From: Balneolaceae bacterium
Lineage (GTDB): Bacteria; Bacteroidota; Rhodothermia; Balneolales; Balneolaceae
DNA: 64,000 nucleotides
NCBI GenBank assembly: GCA_020832285.1
Contig: JAFIFB010000127.1
Span: 1-64,000 of the forward strand
Reading direction: 5' to 3'
The notes under the pieces were generated by a model. It was not told the origin of the DNA. It was given only the letters and a program-made list of their open reading frames with translations, and did not search any database. The position numbers were made by a program, and so were the translations under genes. Positions 27,298 through 46,695 of this stretch are shown here, piece by piece (the first letter of the stretch is position 1; the number at the start of each line of letters is the position of its first letter).

Positions 27298-27417
27298 AAT
27301 AATTTACGTTGCTTTTAAATTGTTAAATCAGATTGTGTAAAATAATACCCGGCCGGTCAAAGCAGCAGCCGTTGGATTGATAACTAAAATAGAAATGTAC
27401 AATATTCGAGTGCCTGT

Positions 27418-27445
27418 ATAGAGACAGATAAGAACAAAATCTACT
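27418..27445 (-). promoter_or_regulatory. Promoter-like element, copy C
   Basis: Transcribed strand: AGTAGATT, 14 bases, CTCTAT. It faces the PVC-type lipoprotein gene starting at 27297. The downstream box is flanked by complementary arms (27414-27417 and 27424-27427). Confidence 0.65.
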
Positions 27446-27973: not shown

Positions 27974-28729
27974 CTACTCCCACGAATGCCTTTCAAATGC
28001 TTTGTTTTTCAAAGGTTTATGGAGCACTATATTAAGGAGTTTCTTTAAATTCCCTTCCATGTTTTCATGCTGCCCGGCCATGATCAGTGCTGTGCCAAGT
28101 GCAGTGGCATGAGGTATGGAAGCCGAATATATTTTTTTACCGGGCAAGCGTTTTGCAAGTAAACTCAGAAAAAAAGAGTTGTTCCCGAACCCTCCTGTAA
28201 CAATAATATTATCTATGTCATCGGTACTATCCGTTAGCTTCATGCACTCGTGTTGAATACAGACCAAATCAATCATTAACTGATGGTAAGCTTCTTTGTA
28301 AGATGAAAATTGATTTATGTCCCATTCACCCGGCTGATCTGTTGGATATGGGCCAGAACTATGAGCTGTTTCGAGCTTTAATTTTTTTTCCGGGGTACTG
28401 TTTGCAATTAAATGCGTTAACAGTGCCGGATCTGGTTCTACTTCACCCTGGCCTTCCTGGTTCAGATGAACCATTGTAGCACCATATGTTGAAAAGTTCA
28501 GATCTGTGACTCTGAATTTATCAATGTTAAGCGCCCTGGATAGTTCAGAATAAACCCAGTCGATCAGTGTTTCAAGATCTTCACCCGGGAATCCCTCATC
28601 GTCTTCTATATGATATATCGTAACCTGTTCCCGGTAGACGATATAATAATCCTTGTCAAATAAGATGATTTTTTTATTGGTCTTACCTATATCAAAGATA
28701 GCCGTTACCGGAATGGCTGATTTACTCAT
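27974..28729 (-). CDS. Internally deleted rhamnulokinase (FGGY), probably inactive
   Basis: 251 residues where rhamnulokinase has about 480. Residues 1-75 align with the N-terminus of the full RhaB at 47569-49017 (TAIFDIGKTNKK, YGATMVH). Residues from about 83 on align with its C-terminal part (SSGPYP, TGGFGNNSFF, LPGKKIYSASIPHATALG). About 230 middle residues are missing, including the QLSTGTW segment and most of the sugar-binding region. The frame is preserved and no stop has appeared, so the deletion may be recent or the product may keep another use. It lies 27 bases downstream of the first aldolase/dehydrogenase gene. Loss of kinase activity is inferred. Confidence 0.85.
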   Translation of the reverse strand: MSKSAIPVTAIFDIGKTNKKIILFDKDYYIVYREQVTIYHIEDDEGFPGEDLETLIDWVYSELSRALNIDKFRVTDLNFSTYGATMVHLNQEGQGEVEPDPALLTHLIANSTPEKKLKLETAHSSGPYPTDQPGEWDINQFSSYKEAYHQLMIDLVCIQHECMKLTDSTDDIDNIIVTGGFGNNSFFLSLLAKRLPGKKIYSASIPHATALGTALIMAGQHENMEGNLKKLLNIVLHKPLKNKAFERHSWE

Positions 28730-31120: not shown

Positions 31121-31912
31121 TTAATCCAACATTTTTAACTCAATATTCCGTACATCTATTCTCATCGGCGGACCGCTGTGTATCTGAAAAGCGAGTATAC
31201 CTTCATGACTTGCTTCCGGCGACTGATCAATTAGTTCATGAGTTAAATTACCATTGATATAAGTCCGTATGGTATCTCCGTTTGCATACACTTGATAATC
31301 GTTCCAATTTGTATGTTCAATACTTTCACCAAGCTCCTCTTCATCGGCAAATCGTTCTGTATGGCTTTCTCCGTCAGCATCAATCAAAACCCGTTCTCCG
31401 CGTCTTGCCAAAATTCCACGCGCTTGTTCTTCATACATAATACCGGGAATCCAATCACTGATTGCAAAATCCGGTTGATATCCACGCACCCTGTATCGTA
31501 GATTCGGGTCTTCATCATCGCCAAAGCGTTCGGATCTGATTTGAATACCTGAATTACCATATTCATCAGCACTCACAATGCCAAACCGGTATTGAAATCG
31601 TATTTCAAAATTTGATGGCTCACCTTCTTCCCATATAAGAAATGTATTTTTTTCAGTAGGATTATCCTCACTGGTTTCACCAACAATCGCACCATCTTCT
31701 ACTCTCCAGAAACGGGGATCACCATCCCAGCCGGTCAGGTCAGAGCCATTAAAAATCGATTCAAAATCGTTTTCCATCTCCAGAGAAATGGTCTCAGTAT
31801 CTCCGGTTACTTCCTGTTGTGAACCCTCATTGTTACCACACCCTAAAAACAGTAGTAAACCTGCCGCAATTGCGACTGCTATTTGAATTTTTATTCGTTC
31901 ATTAAAAATCAT
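31121..31912 (-). CDS. DUF1080 (3-keto-disaccharide hydrolase-type) lipoprotein
   Basis: 263 residues. Signal peptide with lipobox FLGC, lipidated Cys 25. The mature part is a single DUF1080 domain, a concanavalin-like jelly roll (IFNGSDLTGWDGDPRFWRVE, NSGIQIRSE, HTNWNDYQVYANGD). Members of this family hydrolyse 3-keto-glycosides or bind glycans. Oxidation to keto-sugars would require a dehydrogenase such as the Gfo/Idh/MocA protein or a PVC-type protein. It is the first gene of the unit leading into the first rhamnose locus. Promoter-like copy D lies 380 bases upstream. Confidence 0.88.
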   Translation of the reverse strand: MIFNERIKIQIAVAIAAGLLLFLGCGNNEGSQQEVTGDTETISLEMENDFESIFNGSDLTGWDGDPRFWRVEDGAIVGETSEDNPTEKNTFLIWEEGEPSNFEIRFQYRFGIVSADEYGNSGIQIRSERFGDDEDPNLRYRVRGYQPDFAISDWIPGIMYEEQARGILARRGERVLIDADGESHTERFADEEELGESIEHTNWNDYQVYANGDTIRTYINGNLTHELIDQSPEASHEGILAFQIHSGPPMRIDVRNIELKMLD

Positions 31913-32663
31913 TTTATAATAAATTTTAGATTTAAAAACTCTGCTTATATAAAGTCTTCATCAGTGAGAAATAATAAATTATTTAAAGGAGACTTTGAAA
32001 AACCTTATTCAGAAACATTTCAAGTTTACTCCGCTTTGCTGACTTTACTATTATGTATTATTCTGAGTGGAATGAGAAGCAAAGCATTTCTGATTTATAG
32101 GGAATGTCGATCAATCTTCAGATTTTGCAATGCTTCCTTAACCTGATTGATCTTATCTTTTTAGCCTGAGACAATAAGTTAAACACCAAAAAATCAGCTG
32201 CCTGATCAAATCCTTATTTATTCATTTAACAATTTTAGTTATATCTGTTAAAAGTTGATCGCTCTTTAATGTTTAGGTTGAGTCTTGACTATATAGAGAT
32301 AGTCCTTTATTAAATCTACTCTGTACAATTTTTAATAAGTGTGTTCAAGCTGGCATGTACGTACAATCGATTGAGGCAGGTTTTTATTTTCAGGGGTTAA
32401 ACCGAATATCTTGCAGAAAATAATATGAATGAATACTATATTATTTATAAATAAATGTTTACGCATCATTTTTTTGCCAGCCAGCGGATTTGCTGAGGAA
32501 TAAATTTCCTGGTGAGAAAGCCGGTTGATAATATCGGCCTGTGCAGAGTCAGGGCTGATCGGGTTCTTATCCGGGACCCAGCCCAATAATTGTAGTTATA
32601 AAATAAACTGAACCGGCCACTTTCCCTCAGCCGTTTTCAGCCTCATCGTGGACAGATAATTAT
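31913..32663. other. Long non-coding stretch with promoter-like copy D
   Basis: About 750 bases with no supportable gene. A minus-strand open frame at 32332-32586 has a weak start and no family resemblance. If copy D is a promoter, the transcript has a leader of about 370 bases. That leader contains an inverted repeat GATCAATC/GATTGATC (32109-32116, 32145-32152), which could form a structure. Confidence 0.45.
32293..32320 (-). promoter_or_regulatory. Promoter-like element, copy D (first rhamnose locus)
   Basis: Transcribed strand: AGTAGATT, 14 bases, CTCTAT. It faces the DUF1080 gene. The downstream box is flanked by perfectly complementary six-base arms GACTAT (32287-32292) and ATAGTC (32299-32304). 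Confidence 0.65.
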
Positions 32664-33869
32664 TTACATATCAAGATCAGGATTGTCGGGTCCAAAATGC
32701 TTGAGCATGACAATGGGATCTGTTTTTGACGGATTGACGATTTTCACACCTTCTTTTGCAGCTTTCTCACTGACAAAGAATTCATCATGAGAAAGTTGAC
32801 CAAACCGGATCATGGTTGGTGTTTCAATATCCCAAACCCCCATAGTACCGTGTCCCTGCATCATAATCATTCCATATGCAGCAGAATCTTTGATGGTTAC
32901 GGCAGCTCCCGGCAAGACAGTAAGTTCTTTTGCACTGAAATCTTTGGATTTGTAGCATACCCATTTATCTATATAACCATCAGCTTTCATCTCTTCCAGG
33001 GGTTTTACCGGCAGGGGTTCCATAAAACGATTTTTTTGGATATTCGGATCAACATTCAGCTCCCAGTCCAGTATTTCGATCAGCCAGTCGTAGTCGCCAA
33101 GGCGATCTTCGGGAGTATCTTTCCAGAGTAATTCTTCGGGTACAATCGCATCACCCACCAACGACTCGTACATAGAAAACACGTCAGAAGCTTTCTGAGG
33201 CTCATAGGTGCAAAGGCTGCCAGGAGCGTGCAATACGCCCGGGGGGACATCCCAGCCGGTTCCCGGTTGCAGCCGGTGAGCCTGAGACAGGTTTGTGATT
33301 TTATTATCCCCTTTGGTGAAATTTTTCAGACACTCCATCAACTGGTCTTTGGTCGTACCAGGATTGAGACCAAAAAATGTGTAAGGGAAATCGCCACCGT
33401 GATTGTTCACCTGTGGCGGAAAGTAATAGGCTTCTGGTTTTCCATACTGATTGGTCAGTTTGGCATGTTCATCCCTGTGATGGACATGATGTGGCAACGC
33501 CCCTTTGTTATCAAAGAATTTGGAATACATTGGCCAGCTTTCATATTTATTCCAGATTCTTTCGCTCAGCAAGTCGCTTTTTAACTCATCTACTGCATCC
33601 CGGAGCAGAATACTTTCGGTTTTCCCGTTATCCTCAAAAATAATCTGACTCAATCCTTCATTTTCACCAGTAAGAGGACCATTATCTGCAGGTGTTGTGG
33701 AAGCAAACCATCGCTCATCAATTCCTCCCCGCTCACCACCAAGGGCATAGTAATCATCGGGGTGTAATTTTATTCTGCGGCCGGGAATACAAAATGAACG
33801 CGGCACCCAATTCGGTGCCAATCTTAGAATTCCTTTACCTTGTTCCAGTGCTTTTTGTGCTGTACTCAT
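32664..33869 (-). CDS. Cupin-type sugar isomerase-like protein
   Basis: 401 residues, no signal peptide, so cytoplasmic. It has a cupin architecture like type I phosphomannose isomerase, with a metal-binding cluster PHHVHHRDEH and a second cupin half (WDVPPGVLHAPG) whose histidine may complete the site. The C-terminal part is a further beta-rich domain. The family acts on hexoses or hexose phosphates, but the substrate here is unknown. It is the last gene of a four-gene minus-strand cluster with a DUF4432 epimerase, an oxidoreductase and a TIM-barrel isomerase, which suggests one catabolic route for a single sugar. Confidence 0.72.
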   Translation of the reverse strand: MSTAQKALEQGKGILRLAPNWVPRSFCIPGRRIKLHPDDYYALGGERGGIDERWFASTTPADNGPLTGENEGLSQIIFEDNGKTESILLRDAVDELKSDLLSERIWNKYESWPMYSKFFDNKGALPHHVHHRDEHAKLTNQYGKPEAYYFPPQVNNHGGDFPYTFFGLNPGTTKDQLMECLKNFTKGDNKITNLSQAHRLQPGTGWDVPPGVLHAPGSLCTYEPQKASDVFSMYESLVGDAIVPEELLWKDTPEDRLGDYDWLIEILDWELNVDPNIQKNRFMEPLPVKPLEEMKADGYIDKWVCYKSKDFSAKELTVLPGAAVTIKDSAAYGMIMMQGHGTMGVWDIETPTMIRFGQLSHDEFFVSEKAAKEGVKIVNPSKTDPIVMLKHFGPDNPDLDM

Positions 33870-33924
33870 CGTTTAATCCTTAATTATTAATTCAGTATTC
33901 AGTTAGTTAGGGGAATTTCTGCAA

Positions 33925-34983
33925 TCAATAAACACTTGCTTTTATTTCCAAATCATAGGATTTGGTTTCACCAGGCTCAAGTATCAGCAGAGTATTATTT
34001 TTACGTGCCTCGGATTGACCAATCGGAGGATGTGTACATGGTTCCAGTGCCATTACATATTCATTACTGCTCCAATGCTGCCAGTTTGTTAACCAGTTCA
34101 ACTGTTTTTTGTAAAATTTTAAATCTACTCCCAAACCGATGGCATGATTTCTAACACCACATTGGCAACTTCCATCCGGTTTTGACTCAATATCAATAAA
34201 GCCAACGGCTTCCCCTCTACCGGAATGGTCATTGATAGGATTACGGCAGGTTTTGTAGTTATTTCCGTCCCCAAATATTTTACGGCTTTGATCATTTGGC
34301 ACCTCTAACTCGCCCTCCCAGTAAATTTCGGCTCCCTCATCGATCATTGGCCAGCCAAAATTACAGTGGTATAGCAGCATGTGGGGAGCCGGTTGATTGC
34401 CAAGATTGGTTACTTCATCATGGATTTTTACAATCGTTGAACCCAATGTTGCAGAAATCGTACGCTTCAGCTCCAGATGGGGGCCAAACGTGGTTGACTG
34501 GATCATCCTGCCGGTTATACTCATCCCCAAATCCTCTCTCCTTAAATCAGGTTGAATAATGGAGATCACTTCCGCTGGTGAATGACTGATACGGTCGTGC
34601 AATCCTCTTTCTCCATGCTCATCCTTTTCGGGCCCGCCAACATGGGTCAGCCCGCAGGTAGTCAACAGGCCACCGCCAAAAGAGTTCAGCCATTTGGCTC
34701 CTTCTACTGCTGAAGGATCCGGTGCTGTAACTCCCATGTGGCTGATCCAGGCAAGGCTGTACTGGTTATAGAATGCATCAGCAATATCCATACATCTATC
34801 CAGAACAACTTTAAATCGAAGTCCGCTGCCGGTATTAACCCAGGCAATTCTGACCCCCCGACCACTGCCGTTATCAATTACTGCCGTTTCAATACCGCCC
34901 AATTGAATATGGTTCGATATTTTATTATTCCACTTTTCAGTTGAAAATGGTGGATTCAAAGTTTGTTCATCATCAGGTTTCAA
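33925..34983 (-). CDS. DUF4432 aldose-epimerase-like protein
   Basis: 352 residues, cytoplasmic. It matches DUF4432, a galactose-mutarotase-like beta-sandwich family, with recognisable phrases VVLDRCMDIADA, GGLLTTCGLTHVGGP, HMLLYHCNFGWP and ALEPCTHPP. Histidines and a glutamate in these phrases are the likely catalytic or binding residues. It probably interconverts anomers or epimers of the sugar handled by this cluster. It sits 55 bases upstream of the cupin gene and 39 bases downstream of the Gfo/Idh/MocA gene, consistent with one operon. Confidence 0.82.
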   Translation of the reverse strand: MKPDDEQTLNPPFSTEKWNNKISNHIQLGGIETAVIDNGSGRGVRIAWVNTGSGLRFKVVLDRCMDIADAFYNQYSLAWISHMGVTAPDPSAVEGAKWLNSFGGGLLTTCGLTHVGGPEKDEHGERGLHDRISHSPAEVISIIQPDLRREDLGMSITGRMIQSTTFGPHLELKRTISATLGSTIVKIHDEVTNLGNQPAPHMLLYHCNFGWPMIDEGAEIYWEGELEVPNDQSRKIFGDGNNYKTCRNPINDHSGRGEAVGFIDIESKPDGSCQCGVRNHAIGLGVDLKFYKKQLNWLTNWQHWSSNEYVMALEPCTHPPIGQSEARKNNTLLILEPGETKSYDLEIKASVY

Positions 34984-35022
34984 GTGCTTATCAATTTTTA
35001 TATTTACTGTGAGATGTCCGGG

Positions 35023-36177
35023 TTACCATTCAACACCTGTTTTTTTCCAACTTCGTGAAGATGCTGAATTCAGAACCTCTTCACACACTTTTTGGGTTTC
35101 CTGGGCATCTTTGAATGTCGGATGGCAAGGCTCACCGGTCTCCAGGCTTTCGAGGAAATCAGCCACCTGGTGCAGAAATGAATGCTCATAACCGATCGAG
35201 AGGCCAGGCACCCACCATTTATCCATATATGGATGATCCCCGTCCGTAACGTGAATAGATCTCCATCCCCGGACTTGAGAGTCATCGCTGTGGTCAAAAT
35301 AGTCGAGACGGTTTAAATCATGCAAATCCCATCGGATAGAGGCATTCTCACCATTTATTTCAAAAGTAAATAATGCCTTATGACCTCTTGCGTACCGGGT
35401 TGATTCAAATAACCCCAACGATCCATTTTCGAAATAACAATGGAATATACAGGCATCATCAATTTCAACTTTTTCCACTTTGTTGGTTTCCTGATGCATG
35501 CGCTCTTTAACAAATGTCTCAGTCAGAGCTGAAACTTCAGTTATACCGCCATTAAGCCACATTGCTGCATCGATACAGTGAGCGAGAAGATCCCCCGTAA
35601 CACCGGAGCCAGCCACTGATTTATCCATGCGCCACAAACCTTCCCCGCCCTGGGGTAATTCCGGATTTATCGTCCAATCCTGCAAAAAATTTGAACGGTA
35701 GTGAAAAATTTTGCCAAGTTTACCGGAATCAATAATTTTTTTTGCAAGTGTAACAGCCGGTAGCCTCCGGTAGTTATACCAAACCGTATTTTGAACCCCG
35801 GCCTTCTCAACGGCATCAACCATTTCCCTTCCCTCTGAAACGTTTCGTGCCAAAGGTTTTTCACAAAGTATCATCTTACCTGCTTCAGCGGCGGCTATTG
35901 CTATTTCTGCATGCATATCATTCGGTGTACAGATATCGATGGCATCGATATCATCGCGGGCGATTACTTTTTTCCAATCTGTTTCGGCCGACTCATACCC
36001 CCACTGTTCGGCAAATGCCTCAATTTTCTCTTTGGTACGGCCGCAAACCGCTTTTAAAACCGGTTGATAGTTTAGGTCCGGGAAAAAATTACCGACTTTC
36101 CGATATCCATTTGTGTGAGTACGTGCCATAAAGCCATACCCGATCATTCCTATTCTAAGCTCCTTTTTATCACTCAT
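35023..36177 (-). CDS. Gfo/Idh/MocA-family sugar oxidoreductase
   Basis: 384 residues, no signal peptide. An N-terminal Rossmann fold starts with [13 protein letters not shown], and the family motif [11 protein letters not shown] supplies the conserved Lys-Pro. The C-terminal alpha/beta domain carries the usual substrate-side residues. Members use NAD(P) to oxidise or reduce sugars and cyclitols, including making 3-keto-sugars. Its neighbours (isomerase, DUF4432 epimerase, cupin) suggest a cytoplasmic oxidation and isomerisation pathway. It lies 60 bases downstream of the TIM-barrel isomerase gene. Specific substrate unknown. Confidence 0.9.
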
Positions 36178-36237
36178 TGTTCTCTTAACTCCTGAAATTT
36201 TGGTTCGTATTAATTAATTGTTTTTGTGGAAATATGC

Positions 36238-37275
36238 TTATTCGCTCCAACCATGCTTGTTTCGGACATCAATCATAGCAGAAAGAATGTCATTCCATGT
36301 CTGTTGATTGAGCATGACCTCATTTGGAAACATACACCCGTCCCAGCAAATGTGTTTGAAAGCCTTTGTCAATTTACCATTTTCATCCCGTAGCCAGTGT
36401 CCTGCATCTTCGGCAATATCAAGTTTTCCATTTGGGTCCTTCACCTGGCAGTGCCGGCCGGTTTTATCATGGCTTCCGGAGCCAAAAACAGTACCGTCAT
36501 TTTGAGCAACATGAAAATCAATCGTCCATGGACGCAAAGCAGCAGTCATCGTTTTTAAAGCATTTGTCAGAGTTTCTCTGTCATCCCAGTCAAAATCTTC
36601 GGGCAGAATTCTGTCTTCCGGCTTATTATAGCCTAATAAATAGAGCAGTGTATGGGCCATATCTGCCTGAAAACCGATGTTATCCCGGTTAACGGCTTCG
36701 AGAGTATCAACCATAACTTTCCAGCTCTGCATGCCGCCCCAGCATATTTCACCTTCAGCAGCTAATTTTTCATCATAACCGGCGGCTATATCACAAGCTT
36801 CGGCAAATGTGCTGGCGATTTGCTTTGTGCTTTCTGATGGATTTTTCGCCCAGGTGGCCGGGTCCGTTGCCGAATCGATGCGGATAACTCCATAAGGACG
36901 AATACCAACTTCACGCAGAGTCTTACCGATCTCACAAGATTTACGTACTTGTGTTATAAAATTTTGACGATCCTCCTTACTGCCCATAGCTGAGCCTCCT
37001 CCGATATCAGGCCAAACAGGGGCAACCAGGCTTCCCACCTTCAGATCATGTGAGGCAATTTTGTCGGCCAGCTTCTTAAGTTCATCTTTCGAAATGTCGA
37101 TGTCGATGTGCGGATCAAAAAGAAACAGGTCTATACCATCAAATTTGACACCGTTGACTTCGGCATTTGCAGTCAGTTCCAGCATTTTATCCAATCCTAT
37201 TGGAGGTTCTGAATCAGGGCCTTTTCCAACCAGGCCAGGCCATGCGGCATTATGGAGCTTGGGATAGTTATTCAT
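36238..37275 (-). CDS. Sugar phosphate isomerase/epimerase-like TIM barrel
   Basis: 345 residues, cytoplasmic. It fits the xylose-isomerase-like TIM barrel (AP endonuclease 2 superfamily): [48 protein letters not shown] and [11 protein letters not shown] contribute acidic and histidine metal ligands at strand ends. It is the first gene of the minus-strand sugar cluster and is divergent from the MFS transporter gene, with promoter-like elements facing both ways in the shared spacer. The likely role is keto/aldo isomerisation or epimerisation of the transported sugar. Confidence 0.85.
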
Positions 37276-37332
37276 AATGTAAATCTAAAGTTTACAGGTT
37301 AAATCGATTTTATTTTCAGAGGTCATAACTAA

Positions 37333-37360
37333 ATAGAGATAGTTAAACAATAAATCTACT
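37333..37360 (-). promoter_or_regulatory. Promoter-like element, copy E (sugar cluster)
   Basis: Transcribed strand: AGTAGATT, 14 bases, CTCTAT. It lies 58 bases upstream of the TIM-barrel isomerase gene. Six-base complementary arms TAACTA (37326-37331) and TAGTTA (37340-37345) flank the downstream box. Confidence 0.7.
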
Positions 37361-37433
37361 AAAATTTTTGAACTTGCTAATTCAGATGCCGGGCCACACA
37401 CCTTCAAATTCAAACTTTCAAAATAATATTTAA

Positions 37434-37461
37434 AGTAGTTTTATTAATCGTGTGTCTCTTT
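37434..37461 (+). promoter_or_regulatory. Promoter-like element, copy F (MFS transporter)
   Basis: Plus strand: AGTAGTTT, 14 bases, CTCTTT. It faces the MFS gene starting at 37571. It is the only copy on the plus strand, and its orientation follows that of the gene it would serve. Confidence 0.55.
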
Positions 37462-37570
37462 CTACTTAAATAAAATATGTTTCCTCTTATTGCTCATTAC
37501 CATGCGCGATATACACCAAAACTTGATGTTACATCTTCGCTAAAAAACTAACCTGAAATATTAATTAATT

Positions 37571-39148
37571 ATGAACTCTTCTGAACTTGAATCAGCCGGT
37601 ATAAACCACAGGAAGTTATTTATCGGCATTTGTTTAGCGATTATTCCGACAGGGGCATCATTTGTGCTGGTAAGCAATGTTCTTTATCAGTTAAAGACAG
37701 AATTTATCCTGACGAATGCTCATGTTGGCTATATTGGTGGATCTGCTTTATGGGGAATGGCAATTTCTCTATTAGTTGTGGGTCCTTTCCTGGAAAAAAT
37801 TGGGCTGAAAAAAGCTACTATTGGCGCATTTATTGGTCATCTGGCCGGGATTACACTATTCCTGGCTGCTTATCCCTTTGCCGGCGACCCAATCGCTTTC
37901 TGGATCCTGTTTCTTGGGGCCATTGGATTTGGAATCGGTAACGGCTTTATCGAAGTAGCGGGTAATCCGTTGGTTCCTGCACTCTACCCGGATAACAAAA
38001 CGACTAAACTGAACCACTTCCATGCATTCTTTCCCGGTGGCATGGTTCTGGGTGGTTTGATAGGATGGCTGATGGTGCAGGCTGGGACAATCGGTCCCAT
38101 AAACATCGGCCATTGGACCTGGCAAATGGCCATTGTTTACATTCCGGTTCTTATTTACGGTGCGTTGCTTCTCCCGGAGAAGTTTCCGAAGACGGAAACA
38201 GCCCAGGCCGGCATACCGACGAAAGAGCTATTCAAATATACCTTTACAAATCCATGGGTTCTCGGATTGATTCTATTAATGATGTTTACCCTTTCCTTTG
38301 AATTAGGCCCCATGCGCTGGATCCCTGAAGTACTTCAGGCTGCCGGATTGCACGGTATCCTGGTATTGGTATGGATCAGTGGATTGATGATGGTTCTTCG
38401 CTTATTTTCTGGAACATTTGTGGAAACACTCTCACCGACCGGTATGTTATTGGGAGCATCCTTTCTTACAGGAATCGGGTTGCTGATGTTCAGCTTAATT
38501 GAAACCGGATTGTTTCCCCTTCTTATTGCTGCTACTGTATTTGCTGTCGGTGTAGCTTTTTTCATGCCTACCATGGTGGGCCTGATGAGCGAGCGTTATC
38601 CTCAGGCAGGATCCCTGGGAATAGTTCTTATGATCGGTCTTGGCCTTGCAGCAGCCGGCACGTCAAACGGATTGATGGGTGAAATTGCTGATCGTTACCT
38701 CCCGAATGCTCTCGACGAACAGCATACTGTGTCCATTCTGGAGCAGGTAGAAGACCGCTTCCCTTCTTATGTCGAAGCCGCAGAAGCCGTATCAAATGAC
38801 CCGGAAGCTTTGGCCGATCTCGGTTACCGGGCACCAGACGTCCAAACTGTATTAACCTATGCCGGGCAGGCACTCACATACTATCGCTCTGAAGGTCAAC
38901 TGGACGGAAATACGACGGGTAATGCTCTCAGGGCATTACTGGATACGGGATTGGAACAGGAACAGGCATTAATTGATCAAGCCTTTTCCATTTTGCGCCC
39001 TGCTGACAACTATGGAGGGCGGATGTCGTTTTTATGGGTTGTACCCATAACTTTTATCGTTGGATTTATTTTTCTGGTGATGTTTATCAAAGACAAACGA
39101 AAAGGCGGTTATAAAATAGAACGCCTTGACAAACAAGAAGTTGAATAG
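37571..39148 (+). CDS. MFS sugar transporter
   Basis: 525 residues with about 12 predicted transmembrane helices in two groups of six (first near 18-38, last near 490-515). A large hydrophilic segment at about 385-480 separates the last helices and is unusual for the family. Motifs such as GPFLEKIGLKKATIG between helices 2 and 3 fit the MFS loop. It resembles the fucose/glucose-galactose permease side of the family. It is divergent from the four-gene sugar cluster and probably imports that cluster's substrate across the inner membrane. A strong terminator follows at 39233-39266. Confidence 0.88.
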   Translation: MNSSELESAGINHRKLFIGICLAIIPTGASFVLVSNVLYQLKTEFILTNAHVGYIGGSALWGMAISLLVVGPFLEKIGLKKATIGAFIGHLAGITLFLAAYPFAGDPIAFWILFLGAIGFGIGNGFIEVAGNPLVPALYPDNKTTKLNHFHAFFPGGMVLGGLIGWLMVQAGTIGPINIGHWTWQMAIVYIPVLIYGALLLPEKFPKTETAQAGIPTKELFKYTFTNPWVLGLILLMMFTLSFELGPMRWIPEVLQAAGLHGILVLVWISGLMMVLRLFSGTFVETLSPTGMLLGASFLTGIGLLMFSLIETGLFPLLIAATVFAVGVAFFMPTMVGLMSERYPQAGSLGIVLMIGLGLAAAGTSNGLMGEIADRYLPNALDEQHTVSILEQVEDRFPSYVEAAEAVSNDPEALADLGYRAPDVQTVLTYAGQALTYYRSEGQLDGNTTGNALRALLDTGLEQEQALIDQAFSILRPADNYGGRMSFLWVVPITFIVGFIFLVMFIKDKRKGGYKIERLDKQEVE

Positions 39149-39232
39149 TTAATTAAAACCGAAAATTGTCACTGTTGTACTATCCTGACCTGCAGATCAG
39201 GATCACAAGTTTCTTACAAACAATTGACAACA

Positions 39233-39266
39233 GAGGATACCTGTTCAGGGTATCCTCATTTTTTTT
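39233..39266 (+). terminator. Intrinsic terminator after the MFS gene
   Basis: Perfect nine-base stem GAGGATACC/GGTATCCTC (39233-39241, 39249-39257), seven-base loop, then eight T at 39259-39266. An inverted repeat ATCCTGA/TCAGGAT (39182-39188, 39197-39203) lies just before it. Confidence 0.9.
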
Positions 39267-39433
39267 GACCAGACCTTACATCGCATATCAATTTGCAGGA
39301 ATCGTATCACAACGTGGGAATCGCATCGAGTTTACATGATAATCGTTCGAAGCGATTGGCATGGAAAAGATTAAATGAATTGCACAGATATAATGAACAC
39401 ATTTCACTCACAAAAAATGTATCCTTCAAGAGA

Positions 39434-39694
39434 TTAGTTGTTGTTGTCCTGAATGATCGCATTTCGTAATCGAGTCATCTCCTTGTCAACATCGGGTGGA
39501 TTCTTCGTTTTAAACGGCATAGATAGCAGTTTTTTTGCCTGCTCAGCCAGAACTTTATTAGATTCTCTTGATTGGCACCAATTCTCCCATTTAATTATTT
39601 CGCTTTGACTTGCCATTCCTTTCATCCAACGAATAAAAGATTCGTCATCCAGTAATTTTTCAAGTCGATTAATCTCAAAATTCAATAGCTTCAA
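39434..39694 (-). CDS. FecR-like anti-sigma N-terminal stub
   Basis: 86 residues, no transmembrane helix. The phrase FIRWMKGMASQSEIIKWENWC resembles the cytoplasmic, sigma-binding start of Bacteroidota FecR proteins; the membrane helix and the periplasmic FecR domain are absent. It sits 133 bases downstream of the ECF sigma gene on the same strand, the usual sigma-then-anti-sigma order. A promoter-like element (copy H) lies in between, so it may be expressed separately. It could be a soluble anti-sigma factor or a truncated FecR gene. Confidence 0.65.
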   Translation of the reverse strand: MKLLNFEINRLEKLLDDESFIRWMKGMASQSEIIKWENWCQSRESNKVLAEQAKKLLSMPFKTKNPPDVDKEMTRLRNAIIQDNNN

Positions 39695-39746
39695 TTTAAG
39701 TTTACATGTTTAGAAACCTTTTACCATTACTAAACCTACCAATAGT

Positions 39747-39774
39747 TAAGAGACATGTAAAATAATAAACTATT
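39747..39774 (-). promoter_or_regulatory. Promoter-like element, copy H (FecR-like stub)
   Basis: Transcribed strand: AATAGTTT, 14 bases, CTCTTA. It is 53 bases upstream of the FecR-like stub. The match is weaker than copies A-E, but boxes and spacing fit copies B and F. Confidence 0.45.
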
Positions 39775-39827
39775 CTATGAATTTTCGTTTAAAAACTTTC
39801 AGAATCGAATTGTTGGAAGAATTTAAC

Positions 39828-40439
39828 TTATGTGATAAACTCTTGAAGACTTTGAATTGCACCTGACACATGGTTATATACGCTTTGGCGATTAATTCCC
39901 ATGACATCAGCTATTTCAGCATTTGACAGTCCATCATAAAATTTAAGATAAATGACTTCTTTTTGTCGGCCACCCAATTGAGTAATGGCTTTTTCTAATT
40001 TTATTTTCTTCTCTTTTTTTACTTCAAAATAAACCATCAACTCTTCCACGTTTAACACCTCCTGGGAAAAACTCTCTGCATATTTCTGATTACGGTCGTA
40101 AATGGCCCGACTTTTTTTGAGTTTTCTGAATACTGTTCTACGTAAAGAACTTAATAAATAAGATTTTACGGAATAGGCCTCATTTATATAATTTCGACGA
40201 TCCCATATAGTAAGAAATAACTCCTGTATACAATCTTTAATAAATTCTGTATTGCCGATAATCTTAATACCATAATTAAACAATTGATCGTAATACAGCA
40301 GGAACAAGTCAGCCAGCGCCTCCTCATTGCCATTTTGGATATCTATCCAAAGCAGGTCCTCGCATTGATATGATTTCTCTTTACCGTGCTTTGTGCTTAC
40401 TTGCTTTCCATATATTCCCATCGAAATAGGTTGTTTCAT
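39828..40439 (-). CDS. ECF-type RNA polymerase sigma factor
   Basis: 203 residues (ATG 40439; a start six codons further in is possible). Region 2 is seen at FLLYYDQLFNYGIKIIGN and ELFLTIWDRR. Region 4 is the C-terminal helix-turn-helix LGGRQKEVIYLKFYDGLSNAEIADVMGINRQSVYNHV (shown in part by its family pattern). The short linker and absence of regions 1 and 3 mark it as ECF. In Bacteroidota such factors are usually paired with FecR anti-sigma proteins and control SusCD-type loci. It is the only sigma factor here, so it is the natural candidate to read the AGTAGATT-N14-CTCTAT element (inference). Its own upstream region has no copy. Confidence 0.92.
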   Translation of the reverse strand: MKQPISMGIYGKQVSTKHGKEKSYQCEDLLWIDIQNGNEEALADLFLLYYDQLFNYGIKIIGNTEFIKDCIQELFLTIWDRRNYINEAYSVKSYLLSSLRRTVFRKLKKSRAIYDRNQKYAESFSQEVLNVEELMVYFEVKKEKKIKLEKAITQLGGRQKEVIYLKFYDGLSNAEIADVMGINRQSVYNHVSGAIQSLQEFIT

Positions 40440-40560
40440 TATAAATTGGAACCCGATTTAACACATCTTTTACATATCTATCGGGATCAGCTATTAAAAT
40501 TATAGAAGCGCTACCATACCCATAACAATAATCCGAGGCAGACAAATCTTATAAATAAGA

Positions 40561-40584
40561 TGAACAAATGTTCATTAATGATCA
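40561..40584. promoter_or_regulatory. Operator-like inverted repeats before the sorC remnant
   Basis: TGAACA-AA-TGTTCA (40561-40574) overlaps TGTTCATTAATGATCA (40569-40584). The latter is one mismatch short of a perfect palindrome and has the same half-site as the perfect 16-base palindrome before the intact sorC gene (57396-57411). Confidence 0.5.
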
Positions 40585-40734
40585 AATAGCTCTTGCATAA
40601 GATAAACACATATTTCAAAAAATCAACCTGATTTTGAATTGCTTAGAACTTTTTCTAAAAAAGTCCCGGAGTTGTTGAATACTACCAAACAGAGGGATTT
40701 CAAAACCTTTTAAAGATGCTGGAATAAGATTAGT

Positions 40735-41128
40735 ATGTCACGGATCACCAGCTTTTAACTCTTTTCAAACTCTCCCGTCTGCCATTTTTAAATATCCGAA
40801 GACCAGGCCCTGAAATACTGCTAACACTCGCCTTACAAGAAAAATCAGCTCATTTTATGTGCATTTTGATTTAACACAAAAGGAAATTGCGAATCGGCTG
40901 CGAATTTCCATACCTGAAATTTCGAGGTTTTTAAAACAGGCCAAAGAATTAAATTTCGTACAGCTGTTTCTTAATGCTCCTGATAGTTCATTACTGACCC
41001 GTACGAGATGGCATGACCATTCCATTGTTAGTGCCACATTGCTTAAAAACCATATCACAGCTATCTGCATTGGCTTAAACTGGCGAAATAACCCGGATAT
41101 CTCAGTACGCCGTGGAAAGTTTGTATAG
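40735..41128 (+). pseudogene. Remnant of a SorC-family regulator
   Basis: From about 40814 the frame reads TRLTRKISSFY then QKEIANRLRIS and FLKQAKELNFVQL, matching positions 10-60 of the intact SorC regulator at 57642-58607 (TRLISKISSLY, QQEIADKLHLS, LLKQAKEMGIVKI). ATGTCACGG at 40735 equals the first three codons of the intact gene, but stops intervene before the homologous part resumes. After residue 50 it departs, with a possible second match (IGLNW against IGLTW) after an internal loss, then stops at 41128. The effector-binding domain is gone, so this is a decayed copy. Confidence 0.75.
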
Positions 41129-41132
41129 GATT

Positions 41133-41165
41133 AGCCCTCCAAGGGTTTTAAACCCTTGGAGGGCT
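41133..41165. repeat. Perfect 16-base inverted repeat
   Basis: AGCCCTCCAAGGGTTT, one T, then its exact complement. It lies 15 bases beyond the stop of the minus-strand PVC gene and 4 bases after the sorC remnant. There is no T-tract, so it is a REP-like or structural element rather than a standard terminator. Confidence 0.7.
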
Positions 41166-41180
41166 CTGTCGAAATTCAAC

Positions 41181-44100
41181 TTATTCTCTCAGCGTCGAAA
41201 TATACTCCACCAGGTCACGAATTTGGCTGCGCGTTAACAGATCGCCCATCGCAGGCATGGCTGATGGGGCTTGTTCGCGATCCGCGATATCCGACTTCGC
41301 GATATCCACCTGCTCATTGCTTACCATCAGTGAAAGCACCGTATCGGTTTCATTATTAAAAATTCCGCGGACCGTTTCGCCGTCTTCTTTAGTCACTGTT
41401 ACTATTGTAAACCCGGAAACTGGCTGTGCGGATGGATCAACCAGGGCAAGAAGCAGTTCTTCCCGGTTCATGCGATCAGCAATCGTGGTGAGGTCCGGCC
41501 CGACATCAGCACCGCGTTCATCCACAACATGGCAGCGAATACATTGTGCCGCAACATCATTATAAAAAATCTGACGGCCTTCACTTACGCTGCCACCATA
41601 AAGTGTTTCCCGATATTGCGCGAGTTTATCACCCTCTGTTTTTTGTGCTTCATATTCTGCCAGAGCTGTTCGAAGTTCTGCTGTTTCTGTTCGTTCTACA
41701 GCAAGCAGAAGATCAAGCTGCACTTCCGGCTCCATCTCCTCATTCATCAAAAGTGTCATTTCACTCATCAAAACGTCGTGGGCTTCAGGAAGATCGAGCC
41801 GGGAAAGAGCGTCATACGCCTGTTTCTTCTCATCCACCGTGCCTTCTTCCACAACCGAAGTGAGGAGAGCAACTTTTGTTTCGGACGGAAAATCAACATC
41901 CACCAGAACACTTAGTGCGTTCATTCGTACCTCTGAGCTTTCATCTTCAAGCGCTATGGCCAGCGTTTCATCGATCCCATCATACTCAAGTGCTGCGAGA
42001 GTGTTCAGCGCTGTTAAACGAACCTGTGCAGATGCATCACGTTCCACCAGCTCCGCAATCTGCGGTATGGCACTGTCCAGCCCAAGCCTTCCCGCAGCAT
42101 TAAGCGTAGCGATTTTCAGATCGGTGTAGTCCGATGAAAGATACCGATCAGCTGCCATAGCAATGGCATTCTGCCCGTCATTCAGATCGTTTGAAATCTC
42201 TCCGCGATACCACCCTGTAACGCGATCAAAAATGGAGGGTTGCTCCCAGTGCTCCAATGTATTGATCGCTTCAATCCGGAGTTCTTCGGTAACATCATCC
42301 CTCAAAGCAAATGCAGCAATCCGTTCCGCATCTTCCCCGGTTCCGTTGTAAAGCGCTGCATTGATCGCCCTGCGCAAAAGAGGTTCGTTGGTGAAGCGGG
42401 TCTGATCGAGCATGGCTGCCAGAGCCGGAATGGCTTCATCAATATAAAGGTCGTCTGAAATTGCCCTGGCAGCATTGGTTACGATAAATTCATCTTCATC
42501 TTCCAGGAACTGAGCCACACCGGGACTGCCCATTCGTTTGAGAGCTACCACGGCAGCAATCCTGACCGCTCGCGAAGTATGATCGGCCAGTTCATTCACA
42601 GCATCCACATTGCCAATACGGTAAAGTGCGACGGCACCGGCATGGCGAAGGTAGACATCTTCATCATCATTGGCTTCGAGCATCGCCAGAATCGGTTCGA
42701 TGGCCGGTTCATGCCCGATCCGCCCGAGCGCTTCAGCGGCAAACATCTGTACACGCGGATGATCATCGGCAAGCAGCGGAATCAGATCATCACCGGAAGT
42801 TTCATATCGCACATCACCCAGCATTCGTGCAGCCTGAGCTCGTATTTCACGGTCATTATCATCCAAAAAGCTGATCAGCGGAGCCACCACTTCCAGGTTG
42901 CTGCGGCCAATCTGAGCCAGTCCCCAGATTCCGTGAATGCGGGCAAGCTGTTCGCTGCTCTCTTCAACGGTACTGAGAAACCAGTCTGAAGCATCCCGGC
43001 CGGCCAGTTCGAACTGAGCTTTCTGGCGTACCCGCATATCGGCATGGGCAAGAAGACCGGCCAGCTCATCATCCAGCCGTTCGCTGAAATCTTCGGCAAG
43101 GAGTTCTTTGGTTTCCACACGGATGGGTGAATCGGTATGATCGGGAGAGTCCAGCTTCCAGATACGGCCTTCGTTATTTTGTCCCCACCCTTGAATCCAG
43201 TCGGTCATGTAGAGGGCTCCGTCCGGACCAAAATCGATGCCCACAGGCAAAATTCCACGCATTACTTCCTGGTCAGTAGCAAGTTCAAAGGATGCCCCGC
43301 TCTCTTCGAGAGTAAATGCGTAGATCGGTGAGTTGGCTGTGGAGCCGCGGAAAGACATCACGAAGAAGTGATCTTCCCACTCTTCACTGAGTGCTGTTCC
43401 GGGATTGTAGGCAAATCCTGCCGGACCGGCGTGATAGCGCGAAAGCGGCGGCAAAATATGGGCAGACTGATCCTCAAACCGGGGAGTGTACAGGTCTTCA
43501 TCCATCCATACTTTATAGTCGTTATTGATAGGATCGTCATATTTTCCAAACTGCCAGTTGATCCGCCACCCGCTGTCGGAACCGCTGATCGGGTAGATCA
43601 GTCGTTCATATTCTCCGGGATGATCGCCGTCATTATCCACAGTGATAATGTTACCATATTTGTCGAAATCAAATTCATGTGTGTTCCGAAGGCCGGAGGC
43701 AAACACCTCGAAGTTGCTTCCGTCCGGTTCGGACCGAAGGATCGCCCCTTCGTTTGGGTAGTACCACTGTTTACCATCCTGATCTACCACATTAAAACCC
43801 ATATCACCGATGGCCCAGTAGATACGTCCGTCCGGGCCCACTTTCCCGCCCGACATCCCGTGCCCGCTGAAGCCGATGTGTACATTGTAACCGTGGCTGA
43901 TCGACTCTTTCCAATCGGCCATTCCATCACCGTTTGTGTCACGAATTCTCCACATATCCGGGCCCACACCCAGGAATACTTCATCATCTAAAACAGCAAG
44001 GGCGCCGGCAACATCGGTGACCTCATCATGAAAATCACGGATATAGAGCTGGGCAAAATCGGCCAGGCCATCGTTGTTGGTATCTTCGAGTCTCCAGATC

Positions 44101-44609
44101 TCCTCTTTTTTCACAGTGAGGTCGCGCCAGTCGTGTGAGCCGTCTTCGTTGTGGTCGGGCAGCCAGGTATTTTGTTCACTACGTTCGGGTGCCAGTTCGG
44201 AGCGTAAAAAATCGCGGCGGTCTTCCACACTTTCCCATTTCATCGCTTCGATGCGCCAGCTATCGTCCACATCGCGGATGTCAAACTCAGAATTCCGGCT
44301 GCGGTTAGTAATGGTAACCCAGGCACGTCCCTGATGGTCCATATCGAGGGCAACCATATCGCCCAGCATCTTTTCCGATGCCCACAGCGACAGCTCCAGG
44401 CCGTCGAGGTGTTCTACAGAAACACTTTCACGAATTTCCAGTGCATCTTGTTCGGCTTCTTCCGGCATCACAGTGATAATTTCGGGTTCCGGAGGTTCTT
44501 CTCTGGAGCAGTTGGTAAGAATCAGAAAGGAGAGCAGAAATAAAAATCCGATTATTCCTGCCGTGTTAATAGTCAAGTATTGTTTATCACTAGCTGGTTT
44601 GGCGATCAT
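41181..44609 (-). CDS. PVC-type propeller/HEAT/cytochrome c lipoprotein
   Basis: 1142 residues. A hydrophobic N-terminal segment leads to a lipobox-like LTNC (Cys 34; Asn before Cys is unusual). The propeller (about 60-500) has Asp-rich loops (DTNNDGLAD, DTNGDGMAD) and the phrase GPDGALYMTDW. HEAT repeats run from about 520 to 980. The cytochrome c domain has CIRCH at 1023-1027 and SAMPAMGDLL near the end. It is the third and most typical PVC-type protein here. It sits between a sorC remnant and rhaB/lutA scraps, so it may mark an insertion into, or a rearrangement of, an old rhamnose locus. Its codons look more GC-rich than those of its neighbours (visual impression). Confidence 0.87.
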   Translation of the reverse strand: MIAKPASDKQYLTINTAGIIGFLFLLSFLILTNCSREEPPEPEIITVMPEEAEQDALEIRESVSVEHLDGLELSLWASEKMLGDMVALDMDHQGRAWVTITNRSRNSEFDIRDVDDSWRIEAMKWESVEDRRDFLRSELAPERSEQNTWLPDHNEDGSHDWRDLTVKKEEIWRLEDTNNDGLADFAQLYIRDFHDEVTDVAGALAVLDDEVFLGVGPDMWRIRDTNGDGMADWKESISHGYNVHIGFSGHGMSGGKVGPDGRIYWAIGDMGFNVVDQDGKQWYYPNEGAILRSEPDGSNFEVFASGLRNTHEFDFDKYGNIITVDNDGDHPGEYERLIYPISGSDSGWRINWQFGKYDDPINNDYKVWMDEDLYTPRFEDQSAHILPPLSRYHAGPAGFAYNPGTALSEEWEDHFFVMSFRGSTANSPIYAFTLEESGASFELATDQEVMRGILPVGIDFGPDGALYMTDWIQGWGQNNEGRIWKLDSPDHTDSPIRVETKELLAEDFSERLDDELAGLLAHADMRVRQKAQFELAGRDASDWFLSTVEESSEQLARIHGIWGLAQIGRSNLEVVAPLISFLDDNDREIRAQAARMLGDVRYETSGDDLIPLLADDHPRVQMFAAEALGRIGHEPAIEPILAMLEANDDEDVYLRHAGAVALYRIGNVDAVNELADHTSRAVRIAAVVALKRMGSPGVAQFLEDEDEFIVTNAARAISDDLYIDEAIPALAAMLDQTRFTNEPLLRRAINAALYNGTGEDAERIAAFALRDDVTEELRIEAINTLEHWEQPSIFDRVTGWYRGEISNDLNDGQNAIAMAADRYLSSDYTDLKIATLNAAGRLGLDSAIPQIAELVERDASAQVRLTALNTLAALEYDGIDETLAIALEDESSEVRMNALSVLVDVDFPSETKVALLTSVVEEGTVDEKKQAYDALSRLDLPEAHDVLMSEMTLLMNEEMEPEVQLDLLLAVERTETAELRTALAEYEAQKTEGDKLAQYRETLYGGSVSEGRQIFYNDVAAQCIRCHVVDERGADVGPDLTTIADRMNREELLLALVDPSAQPVSGFTIVTVTKEDGETVRGIFNNETDTVLSLMVSNEQVDIAKSDIADREQAPSAMPAMGDLLTRSQIRDLVEYISTLRE

Positions 44610-44699
44610 CGATGTAATAATTTTATTTACAGAACAGATAAGTTAGTAATGTAAAAGCTATGGGATTTAAAATCTTTTAAAAATCCACCTAAATTCTTT

Positions 44700-44775
44700 A
44701 CTCTGTTTCAGCCAAAATCTCGGCAATGTGAACGGTTTTGATACCGCTTCACTGACGGCTCATCGCACCTGTTTC
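44700..44775 (-). pseudogene. Remnant of lutA 3' end
   Basis: The minus strand reads MSRQ, stop, SGIKTVHIAEILAETE, stop. The intact LutA at 46797-47528 ends MSRQRSGVKSVHIAEILACREK. One codon has become TGA and nothing recognisable remains further upstream. The GGTGCGATGAGCCG stretch is identical in both copies. Confidence 0.8.
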
Positions 44776-44854
44776 GGGGAGGGGTGTTCTTTTTCAACAC
44801 CTTGACAAACTTAAATATTTTAGGTTTTAAGATCTTCAAACTCACTTCTTGGAC

Positions 44855-44900
44855 AACCATAATACTACATGTGCCAGTTGAGAGCTGAATTCCGGCAACG
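44855..44900 (-). pseudogene. Scrap resembling rhaB
   Basis: The minus strand encodes GIQLSTGTCSI, close to FIQLSTGTWSI of the intact rhamnulokinase, with matching nucleotides (CAGCTCTCAAC, GGCAC). Flanks do not align. The match is short, but it lies upstream of the lutA remnant in the same order as the intact rhaB-lutA pair. Confidence 0.5.
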
Positions 44901-45144
44901 TAATAACCGATGAGGAAGCCTATAAACAAATCGCATCGTGGCTTTAAAAATTTTATGGACGTTTGGCTCAGCAAGATCGTGTCAAAGTTTTCAAATACCG
45001 GAATAAACGCATGAAATCAAATCATGTATGAACAAAGCATTAAAAATTAATATCATTTTTTTTATTTGATTTCAATATACTTACATATTAAAGAGAGCAT
45101 ATACTCGCAATCCAGAAATTTTAATCATTCATTATTGATGAACT

Positions 45145-46695
45145 ATGAAACACTCATTCTTTTTCAGCCTGGCCACTCTGCTTGTAATCCTTCTGATTGG
45201 CTGCTCAACGGATAGTGGCCAAAATCACACATTCATCGCTGATACATTACCCGAAGATGGTGGCACCATAACTCCGCCATCCGGTACCTTTGAAGATGGA
45301 TCCCAGGTTAAAATCAGGGCTGAACCGGCTGATGGCTTCCTTTTTGAGAGATGGGAGGGTGATGTAACAGGGGATGAAAATCCGGTGACCCTTTCTTTTT
45401 TCAGAGACCAGCAGGTGACAGCCGTTTTCACAACCGCACCTTTTGAAGCAGGCGGGGATGGAAGTATGGCAAACCCGTACAGGGTTTCCACTCTTGATGA
45501 TTTACAGGCTATCGACGATGAACAATATCTTGACAAGCACTTTATCCAAGTCAGTGATATTGATGCCTCTGCTTCCGCTGAATTTCAGCATGGATCGGGC
45601 TTCAAACATATCGGAGACCAAGATACACCCTTTACCGGTTCGTATGATGGAAACGGGTTTGTGATCCGGGATTTGCATCTTCATATTCAGCGTGAAGGCG
45701 GCCAACATACCGGAATTTTTGGAACGATTCAGAATGGCCGCCTGGAAAATATTACGGTTGATAACAGTGAACAATTTTTAAAAATGCCGTCAAATCAGAA
45801 ATCAGCTTATAAAACTGTTCTTGATCAATCAGATAACTTCTTATTTAATAATACTGATTTATCGACTGTGCGGGGTATAGGCGGATTGGTTGGTTTTAAT
45901 GATGGCGGCGTCATCCTCAACTGTAATTATACGGGAGAGGTTGGTGCACATATAAGCGGCACCGGAAGCGGCCTTGTGGGTGTAAATACGGGTATCATTG
46001 AAAATTCTCATTTTGAAGGCTACACGTCTGGCGGTCGGGCTGTCGGGCTGGTTAAACTGAACACCGGTAAAATCATAAACTCTTCTGCAGATGTAAGCGC
46101 AGTAGGTATGTATGCTTATGGACTGGTTTCTCTAAACTATGGAGAAATCACAGATTCTTTTGCTCATGTTGATATATCGGGAAGTATGGGGTCTGCCGGA
46201 CTGGCCGGCACTAATGAAGGCGGGCGAATTGAGGCTTCCTATGCAACAGGAGAGGTTAGGGGCAGCCGGATATCTGCCGGTTTAGTGCTGCATAATAGCG
46301 GAGAAATTATACACTCATATTCGCAGGTAAATGTGGACCTTGAATATGCAGAATATGATCAATTTACAGCCGCCGGGTTTGTGGCAGAAAACCTGGAAAA
46401 CGGAATCATTGAATATTCGTATGCAGCCGGAACCATTACGGCCACGGATGAGACTGCCGATATTGGTGCAGTAGCAAAAATAAATGAGGGGACCATCAGT
46501 TCAACCTATTGGGACAGTGAAACTTCCGACCTCGAAGATGCCGTTTTCATTGGTAACACCGGCGGCGCCACCGGCCTCACCTCACAGCAGATGAGTGGTT
46601 CTGCAGCCGAAACCCACATGCCGGAATTTGACTGGCAAACAGTGTGGAGAACCACGGACGGGTACCCGGTGTTGCGGTGGCAGAGTGACTGGTGA
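45145..46695 (+). CDS. InlB-B/GLUG repeat lipoprotein
   Basis: 516 residues. Signal peptide with lipobox LIGC (Cys 20). Residues about 30-95 form a divergent InlB B-repeat (GGTITPPSGTFEDGSQVKI, FERWEGDV). After a linker (GSMANPYRVSTLDDL) come GLUG-type repeats (about 230-450), each with a G-L-(V/A)-G or similar start and an I-x-(N/D/E)-S-(Y/F) phrase, predicting a right-handed beta-helix. A C-terminal cap ends in DGYPVLRWQSDW. It is a surface or periplasmic lipoprotein of adhesin-like type, perhaps glycan-binding. It is one of the few plus-strand genes in this half and has no obvious operon partner. Confidence 0.82.
   Translation: MKHSFFFSLATLLVILLIGCSTDSGQNHTFIADTLPEDGGTITPPSGTFEDGSQVKIRAEPADGFLFERWEGDVTGDENPVTLSFFRDQQVTAVFTTAPFEAGGDGSMANPYRVSTLDDLQAIDDEQYLDKHFIQVSDIDASASAEFQHGSGFKHIGDQDTPFTGSYDGNGFVIRDLHLHIQREGGQHTGIFGTIQNGRLENITVDNSEQFLKMPSNQKSAYKTVLDQSDNFLFNNTDLSTVRGIGGLVGFNDGGVILNCNYTGEVGAHISGTGSGLVGVNTGIIENSHFEGYTSGGRAVGLVKLNTGKIINSSADVSAVGMYAYGLVSLNYGEITDSFAHVDISGSMGSAGLAGTNEGGRIEASYATGEVRGSRISAGLVLHNSGEIIHSYSQVNVDLEYAEYDQFTAAGFVAENLENGIIEYSYAAGTITATDETADIGAVAKINEGTISSTYWDSETSDLEDAVFIGNTGGATGLTSQQMSGSAAETHMPEFDWQTVWRTTDGYPVLRWQSDW

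Follow-up and report, generated by a model that had tools for sequence, protein, structure and literature searches.

By sequence comparison, a small gene next to an ECF sigma factor gene of a Balneolaceae bacterium encodes the cytoplasmic, sigma-binding type domain of FecR, without the membrane helix or the periplasmic part. We called this gene the stub. It appeared to be a natural free-standing FecR anti-sigma domain, and we inclined with modest confidence to the view that its product was a cytoplasmic, self-limiting brake on the sigma factor. The best reading of the locus was that signalling from the cell surface had been dismantled and that FecR had been cut down to this self-limiting cytoplasmic anti-sigma. 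The window (the whole stretch of DNA that was analysed, 64,000 nucleotides) was contig C17 of a genome assembly of 5.33 Mb in 130 contigs, and its neighbours in the sigma tree and the named relatives placed it with the Balneolaceae.

The stub gene and its protein

The two genes were as follows.

39434 to 39694, minus strand: stub gene, a free-standing FecR N-terminal domain of the sigma-binding type, matching FecR N-termini only
39828 to 40439, minus strand: gene of an ECF sigma factor of 203 residues, by its Pfam domains and the sigma tree

On the minus strand, the sigma gene was followed after a gap of 133 bases by the stub, and next came an MFS gene in convergent orientation. The stub had 86 residues and a TTG start with 5 open codons ahead of it (stop-to-stop frame 91). 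The sigma factor scored above the Pfam cut-offs for Sigma70_r2 (26.6, cut-off 24) and Sigma70_r4_2 (45.5, cut-off 25.7), and regions 2 and 4 were the only ones found, which is the ECF composition. Its best-scoring model was TIGR02985, the Bacteroidetes sigma subfamily, yet the score of 93.7 bits was below the cut-off of 126.4 bits. A preliminary description of this DNA was correct in the coordinates of both genes and in calling the larger one an ECF sigma gene. It had also proposed that the 86-residue protein was only the cytoplasmic segment of FecR, and this held as well, since the sequence matches were confined to FecR N-termini and there was no helix.

Pfam and NCBIfam were silent on the FecR origin of the stub, with no FecR match at E<=1 and weak matches to DIL and QWxxN below cut-off. 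The full FecR sequences of relatives did match. Namely, the stub aligned with the N-terminal ~80 residues of these proteins, whose open frames mostly had 350-390 aa, and the best E-values were 4.5e-13 (genome G033), 3.9e-12 (G051) and 6.2e-12 (G012). The highest 19-residue Kyte-Doolittle mean in the window stub was -0.01, and the maximum was <=0.76 across the five stubs described below, versus 1.70-2.67 in full FecRs. The hydrophobic stretch of the full FecRs started at residues 93-121 (21/21), and all five stubs ended earlier. The periplasmic FecR/FecR_C region had no match in the stub protein and no remnant behind the stub gene. When 21 full FecRs were compared with the stub loci, no HSP extended beyond residue 115 in the window, G053, G040 and Gracilimonas mengyeensis. 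G012 was the exception, where one full-FecR alignment crossed the stub stop and reached residue 136 (E 2.4e-5). The position of the helix past the stub ends, together with alignments that stopped by residue 115 at four of the five loci, indicated that the stub was the cytoplasmic domain alone.

AlphaFold2 modelled the stub as five helices (pLDDT 79, pTM 0.55). With E-values of up to 10 allowed, a Foldseek search with this model returned five PDB chains, the best at E 8.8 and none significant. Four of the five came from sigma/anti-sigma complexes (AlgU-MucA, SigL-RslA) and were taken to be the anti-sigma chains, judging by length and numbering. The best structural alignment had a Z of 3.9 over 46 residues, and the likeness of the predicted fold to anti-sigma chains was a hint only. 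A stub-profile sequence search of solved structures gave nothing below E 0.02 (best match YibL), and no PupR or other FecR-type chain was among the matches to solved structures by sequence or by fold.

Conservation of the short form and the sigma tree

Four further stubs were found, of 81 aa (G053), 89 aa (G040), 95 aa (G012) and 88 aa (G. mengyeensis DSM 21985). The stub adjoined an ECF sigma gene in the window, G040, G012 and G. mengyeensis, and was unlinked in G053. The alignment of the five had 11 invariant residues, among them F20, W23, W36 and W39, at pairwise identities of 26-58%. A profile of the five stubs gave 62 matches in 128 genomes of the order: the five stubs (open frames 87-99 aa), which topped the ranking by construction because the query was built from them, and 57 others that were all full-length (349-407 aa). 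In 394 genomes across the phylum, the matches listed, at least 60, comprised 55 full-length frames, four of the known stubs and a chance match of 22 codons riddled with stops; among these matches, short forms were seen only in the Balneolaceae sigma/stub family.

At the orthologous loci the relatives carried a short stub or no FecR, never a full one, so a sequencing error or a recent truncation by frameshift seemed unlikely. The small size, the TTG start and the G012 alignment past the stub stop would fit a chance open frame, a frameshift or a recent truncation. Nevertheless, we found such an origin hardly credible, given a short form in five genomes, one of them an isolate assembly, and the absence of longer alignments at the other four loci.

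In a tree of 54 sigma factors, 15 Balneolaceae sigmas formed one clade (support 96/88), of which five had a stub, ten had no FecR found nearby and none had a full FecR. "Nearby" here meant within the fetched stretch, which was short in two cases, the 3.1 kb contig of G026 and the 3.9 kb stretch of G013. The remaining branches were mostly FecR-bearing, with 34 such labelled rows in total, and three rows at contig ends were unlabelled. This tree used 24 of 80 loci, and the long FecR rows G039_C100, G051_C34 and G020_C285 had been removed beforehand. The exclusion of all FecR rows from the 15-row clade appeared only in this tree; in an earlier tree of 33 rows, the smallest well supported set around the window sigma had 16 rows and still mixed the types (4 stub, 7 none, 5 FecR).

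The Fodinibius sigmas, which had no FecR, nested with those of the stub-bearing G012, G040 and Gracilimonas (100/94, 98/85). Since sigmas without a stub were nested beside stub-bearing ones, the stub must have been lost at least once. The simplest course would be that FecR was reduced to the stub once and that the stub was then lost at least twice, and two independent truncations of FecR would be a possible alternative. In G053, the stub shared the MFS gene and the operon with the window, and the sigma, 62-70% identical to that of the window depending on the alignment, sat on a different contig with a SusD-like gene near. At the G053 stub locus (L082, on C239), a gene that we took to be ApbE-like stood between the SorC gene and the stub, where other stub loci had the sigma.

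The dN/dS ratio was about 0.15 for the stubs of G040 and G. mengyeensis and about 0.67 (dN 0.60, dS 0.90), meaning weak constraint, for those of the window and G053; the remaining pairs were saturated or nearly so. Four of the five stubs (window, L082, L071, L112) started with TTG, and G012 alone with ATG. The stub could be a relic in slow decay that no longer mattered once surface sensing was lost and that was on its way out, as had been the case in sister lineages, in line with the TTG starts, the higher dN/dS ratio and the nesting of Fodinibius within the G012/Gracilimonas group. We considered this improbable, as the frame had stayed open in five diverged lineages with its invariant residues, the ratio was low for one pair, and all five stubs had retained the upstream element described below.

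SusC receptors, sugar genes and a promoter-like element

The receptor genes of the window were the following.

17027 to 20218, minus strand: SusC without STN, with CarbopepD_reg_2 from residue 51 (Pfam/NCBIfam)
15382 to 16944, minus strand: SusD (Pfam)

The preliminary description had noted that the local SusC lacked the STN domain, and indeed no STN match was found in it at E<=1. This SusC lay 20 kb from the stub; a SusC directly followed the stub in G040, G012 and G. mengyeensis, where CarbopepD_reg_2 began at residue 62 (an over-long start), 47 and 38, respectively. In all seven SusCs beside full FecRs it began at residues 123-152, and six of the seven had STN or FecR_C (STN-like) matches, below cut-off, within this N-terminal extension. 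None of the four stub-linked or local SusCs had such matches at the thresholds used, and the extension was absent. Thus, by comparison of these proteins, the SusC extension appeared to be lost together with the membrane and periplasmic part of FecR. By eye, the extension also seemed to be missing from the FecR-linked receptor of locus L127.

A clade of 15 sigmas without a full FecR, whose linked SusCs had no STN extension, suggested that surface signalling had been abandoned. As it had no membrane part and SusC carried no receiver, the stub could not relay a signal from the outer membrane, as had been proposed, and this soluble form was kept in all five stubs. A full-length FecR from elsewhere in the genome might instead control the sigma in trans, with the stub merely modulating it, and the genome did contain 19 FecR_C matches, 18 of them above cut-off. 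Each FecR locus examined had its own adjoining sigma, however, and together with the state of the whole clade and its receptors this made control in trans very improbable.

The window also contained sugar genes and SorC-type regulator genes.

32664 to 37275, minus strand: four-gene sugar operon (TIM barrel, GFO/IDH/MocA dehydrogenase, DUF4432, 401-aa protein)
40802 to 40999, plus strand: N-terminal remnant, next to the sigma, of a SorC-type regulator that is intact at this place in relatives
57642 to 58607, plus strand: intact SorC-type sugar-binding regulator (PF04198, E 2.7e-66)

The window also encoded an L-rhamnose isomerase-like protein (TIGR02629, 492.9 bits, below cut-off), two bifunctional rhamnulose-phosphate aldolase/dehydrogenases above cut-off and an FGGY kinase. 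Close homologues of its rhamnose genes or of the TIM/GFO/DUF4432 operon were present in 11 of the 14 other clade loci, all except G040, G. mengyeensis and the 3 kb G026 contig, so that 12 of the 15 clade sigmas, window included, were near L-rhamnose or related sugar genes. A SorC-type regulator was likewise found in 11 of the 14. None of the 12 queries matched in 12 control loci around full-FecR sigmas (stretches of 6.5-12.6 kb). In three species of Fodinibius, the sister sigma was followed by an orthologue of the four-gene operon, the order being SorC, sigma, operon. The remnant beside the window sigma and the closest intact SorC copies were 48-51% identical across 61-65 residues.

Some differences were seen relative to G017, where genes flanking a sister sigma that had neither stub nor FecR were about 90-96% identical to those of the window. 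The interval that matched its position (56779-57641) had no trace of this sigma in the window at E<=0.01 and contained an unlisted open frame that resembled an L-rhamnose mutarotase. A second FGGY kinase copy (27974-28729, minus strand) had an internal deletion relative to the G017 kinase, of about residues 94-317, and retained both ends. The gene at 55831-56778 (minus strand) aligned with a 452-residue G017 relative in two pieces, 1-125 and 221-452, and the internal stretch seemed to be missing.

A bipartite element, AGTAGA-N15-TCTCT (AGTAGA(TTT), 15 bases, TCTCT), recurred upstream of genes of the window.

12343 to 12372, minus strand: strong copy, upstream of 10945-12318
15334 to 15363, minus strand: copy 427 bp upstream of the sulfatase-like gene 13513-14904
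20359 to 20388, minus strand: copy about 140 bp upstream of SusC
27416 to 27445, minus strand: strong copy, upstream of 24571-27297
32291 to 32320, minus strand: strong copy, 376 bp upstream of 31121-31912
37331 to 37360, minus strand: strong copy, upstream of the operon starting with 36238-37275
37434 to 37463, plus strand: strong copy, upstream of the MFS transporter 37571-39148
39745 to 39774, minus strand: weak copy between sigma and stub, 50 bp ahead of the stub start

Four of the first seven copies came from a motif-free comparison of intergenic segments and the other three from a matrix search. The matrix used for scoring was built from these seven, with separate halves, so that their own scores of 20-29 were high by construction. 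All were within the 12-38 kb part of the window, 22-427 bp upstream of the closest co-oriented gene. In the genome, the exact pattern AGTAGA-N15-TCTCTNTA occurred three times, always in the window, which was its source. Among 98 genomes, it was present in 8 of the 11 that had a clade sigma, compared with 9 of the 87 others (p 1.9e-5), or in 7 of 10 when the genome of the window was left out (p 8.1e-5); the reversed pattern was found in 2/11 and 11/87 (p 0.45).

The copy before the window stub scored 11.6-11.9 (p 0.017 versus resampled sequence). The preliminary description had proposed a moderate promoter copy upstream of the stub; it was present, and its position was conserved at all five stub loci, with p of 0.017, 0.001, 0.002, 0.011 and 0 of 1000 (combined 1.2e-8). 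None of these five copies contributed to the matrix. Within 300 bp upstream of the sigma gene, the element was absent in all four cases tested (p 0.34-0.91). The copy upstream of the G012 SusC had a p of 0.064. In Fodinibius, the element stood between sigma and operon in two of the three species, and F. salsisoli had none scoring >=10 there.

In a reversed-sequence control of 320,473 bases, there were 91 matches at >=10, 17 at 12, 7 at 14 and 4 at 16. In 217,095 bases of the relatives, the forward and reversed counts were 58 and 68 at 10, 27 and 11 at 12, 15 and 4 at 14, and 12 and 2 at 16. According to these controls, single matches below about 14 meant little without their position. A palindromic operator (AACTAT...ATAGTT) was also considered; searched as AACTAT-N5-WTTAGTT with 3 mismatches, it gave 43 matches against 41 expected and was dropped in favour of the bipartite form, which covered copies that it missed. 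A single 33-base matrix iterated on the window drifted to AT-rich noise (iterations 1-3), and no Rfam family reached the gathering score within 31900-45200.

A putative brake and its relation to known systems

The proposed course begins with a full FecR that lost its membrane helix and periplasmic part and so became the stub, as the linked SusC lost its STN-type extension. The stub would then most likely bind the window sigma in the cytoplasm and keep part of it inactive. Since the stub gene carried a copy of the element found upstream of the sugar operons, the sigma would raise its own inhibitor: more active sigma would give more stub, which would be a damper and not a sensor. An element before the stub and none before the sigma fitted an inhibitor made in proportion to the output of the sigma. 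The signal would be an internal one, and its simplest route would be a SorC-type regulator that answers to a sugar or sugar phosphate and controls transcription of the sigma. The weakness of the element copy before the window stub and the reduction of the adjoining SorC gene to a remnant counted against a brake of this kind, as did the weak constraint on the stubs of the window and G053 and the activating effect of E. coli FecR 1-85 cited below. In addition, the inhibitor was evidently dispensable for this sigma family, as ten of the 15 clade sigmas had no FecR found nearby.

The locus shared with FecI/FecR/FecA and with the Bacteroidota sigma/FecR/SusC-STN units the N-terminal sigma-binding type domain, the adjoining ECF sigma, a SusC nearby and an element before the anti-sigma. 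In contrast to them, it was without the membrane helix, the periplasmic FecR/FecR_C part and the STN domain of SusC. The soluble class I anti-sigmas resemble the stub, a putative anti-sigma domain, in being small, cytoplasmic and free of a membrane anchor, and differ from it in lineage, as the stub is of the FecR line. With at most one Cys each, the stubs also had no zinc motif of the usual kind. The PUL24 anti-sigma of Bacteroides is another relevant case, as we take it to be FecR-like. According to PMC11501099, loss of the PUL anti-sigma of Bacteroides thetaiotaomicron raises PUL24 transcription. PMC7406223 gives about 35% of class I anti-sigmas as predicted soluble. Isolated FecR N-tails (FecR 1-85, FpvR 1-67, the LIC12756 NTD) have about the length of the stub and are the same domain, and they have been shown to suffice for an effect on the sigma. 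They are laboratory constructs or products of proteolysis, whereas the stub is a separate conserved gene. It was already known that soluble anti-sigmas are common, and FecR N-tails have been well studied as fragments; what seemed new was a conserved gene for the FecR N-tail alone, as no natural stand-alone gene of this kind turned up in full-text searches of openly available papers.

Both signs of action are on record for isolated FecR N-termini. According to PMC9249621, residues 9-59 of E. coli FecR suffice for FecI activation, and the isolated FpvR N-terminus of 67 residues inhibits. In Leptospira, the FecR-like N-terminus of LIC12756 (73 residues) on its own is an inhibitor of the cognate sigma and shows no pro-sigma activity (PMC13118517). 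This is why inhibition was favoured only by the modest degree given above and activation was held to be rather unlikely. The main rival was a pre-cleaved activator, to which we gave a low weight: the stub would mimic the FecR N-tail that proteolysis sets free and would be needed for, or enhance, the activity of the sigma. Stubs ended where the membrane helix starts in full FecRs, and FecR 1-85, near the stub in size, activates FecI constitutively, and RseP is then no longer needed (PMC9249621). Moreover, in G053 the stub was retained as an independent unit that had its own element, the sigma being on another contig. Against this, the ten clade sigmas without FecR nearby presumably work alone, and the Bacteroides PUL anti-sigma and the isolated Leptospira and FpvR N-termini inhibit. 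In its fuller form, which was a fairly doubtful one, the stub would be a permanent pre-cleaved FecR N-tail that is made by the sigma and activates it, a former sensor part that now forms the positive-feedback arm of a cytoplasmic sugar switch. If an activator were made from a promoter that depends on the sigma, the outcome would be positive feedback and a switch of the all-or-none type.

If the stub is indeed a free-standing FecR domain acting on the sigma, these loci would be a natural experiment on the opposite roles of the FecR N-tail as inhibitor and activator, with a graded series of full FecR, stub and no FecR within one family. They would also indicate that a transenvelope sensing unit can be dismantled while the sigma and the promoter element persist. 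In practical terms, the sigma and the stub, as its natural anti-sigma or pro-sigma partner, would form a small system whose predicted promoter lends itself to tests in a standard reporter strain. Beyond the preliminary description, the comparison added the joint loss of the SusC extension, the nested series from FecR through the stub to nothing, and a possible SorC input.

Self-limitation as proposed for the brake may be older than the stub, since some FecR-bearing relatives (L052, L056, L057 and L127) had a copy of the element between sigma and FecR. In most of 52 full-FecR gaps in wider relatives, there was no copy. By eye, an AGTAGA with a different second half (ACTTAT type) was seen 14-19 bp before FecR in several Chitinophagaceae-type loci (L133, L153, L160 and L178), and these sites may represent a related promoter class.
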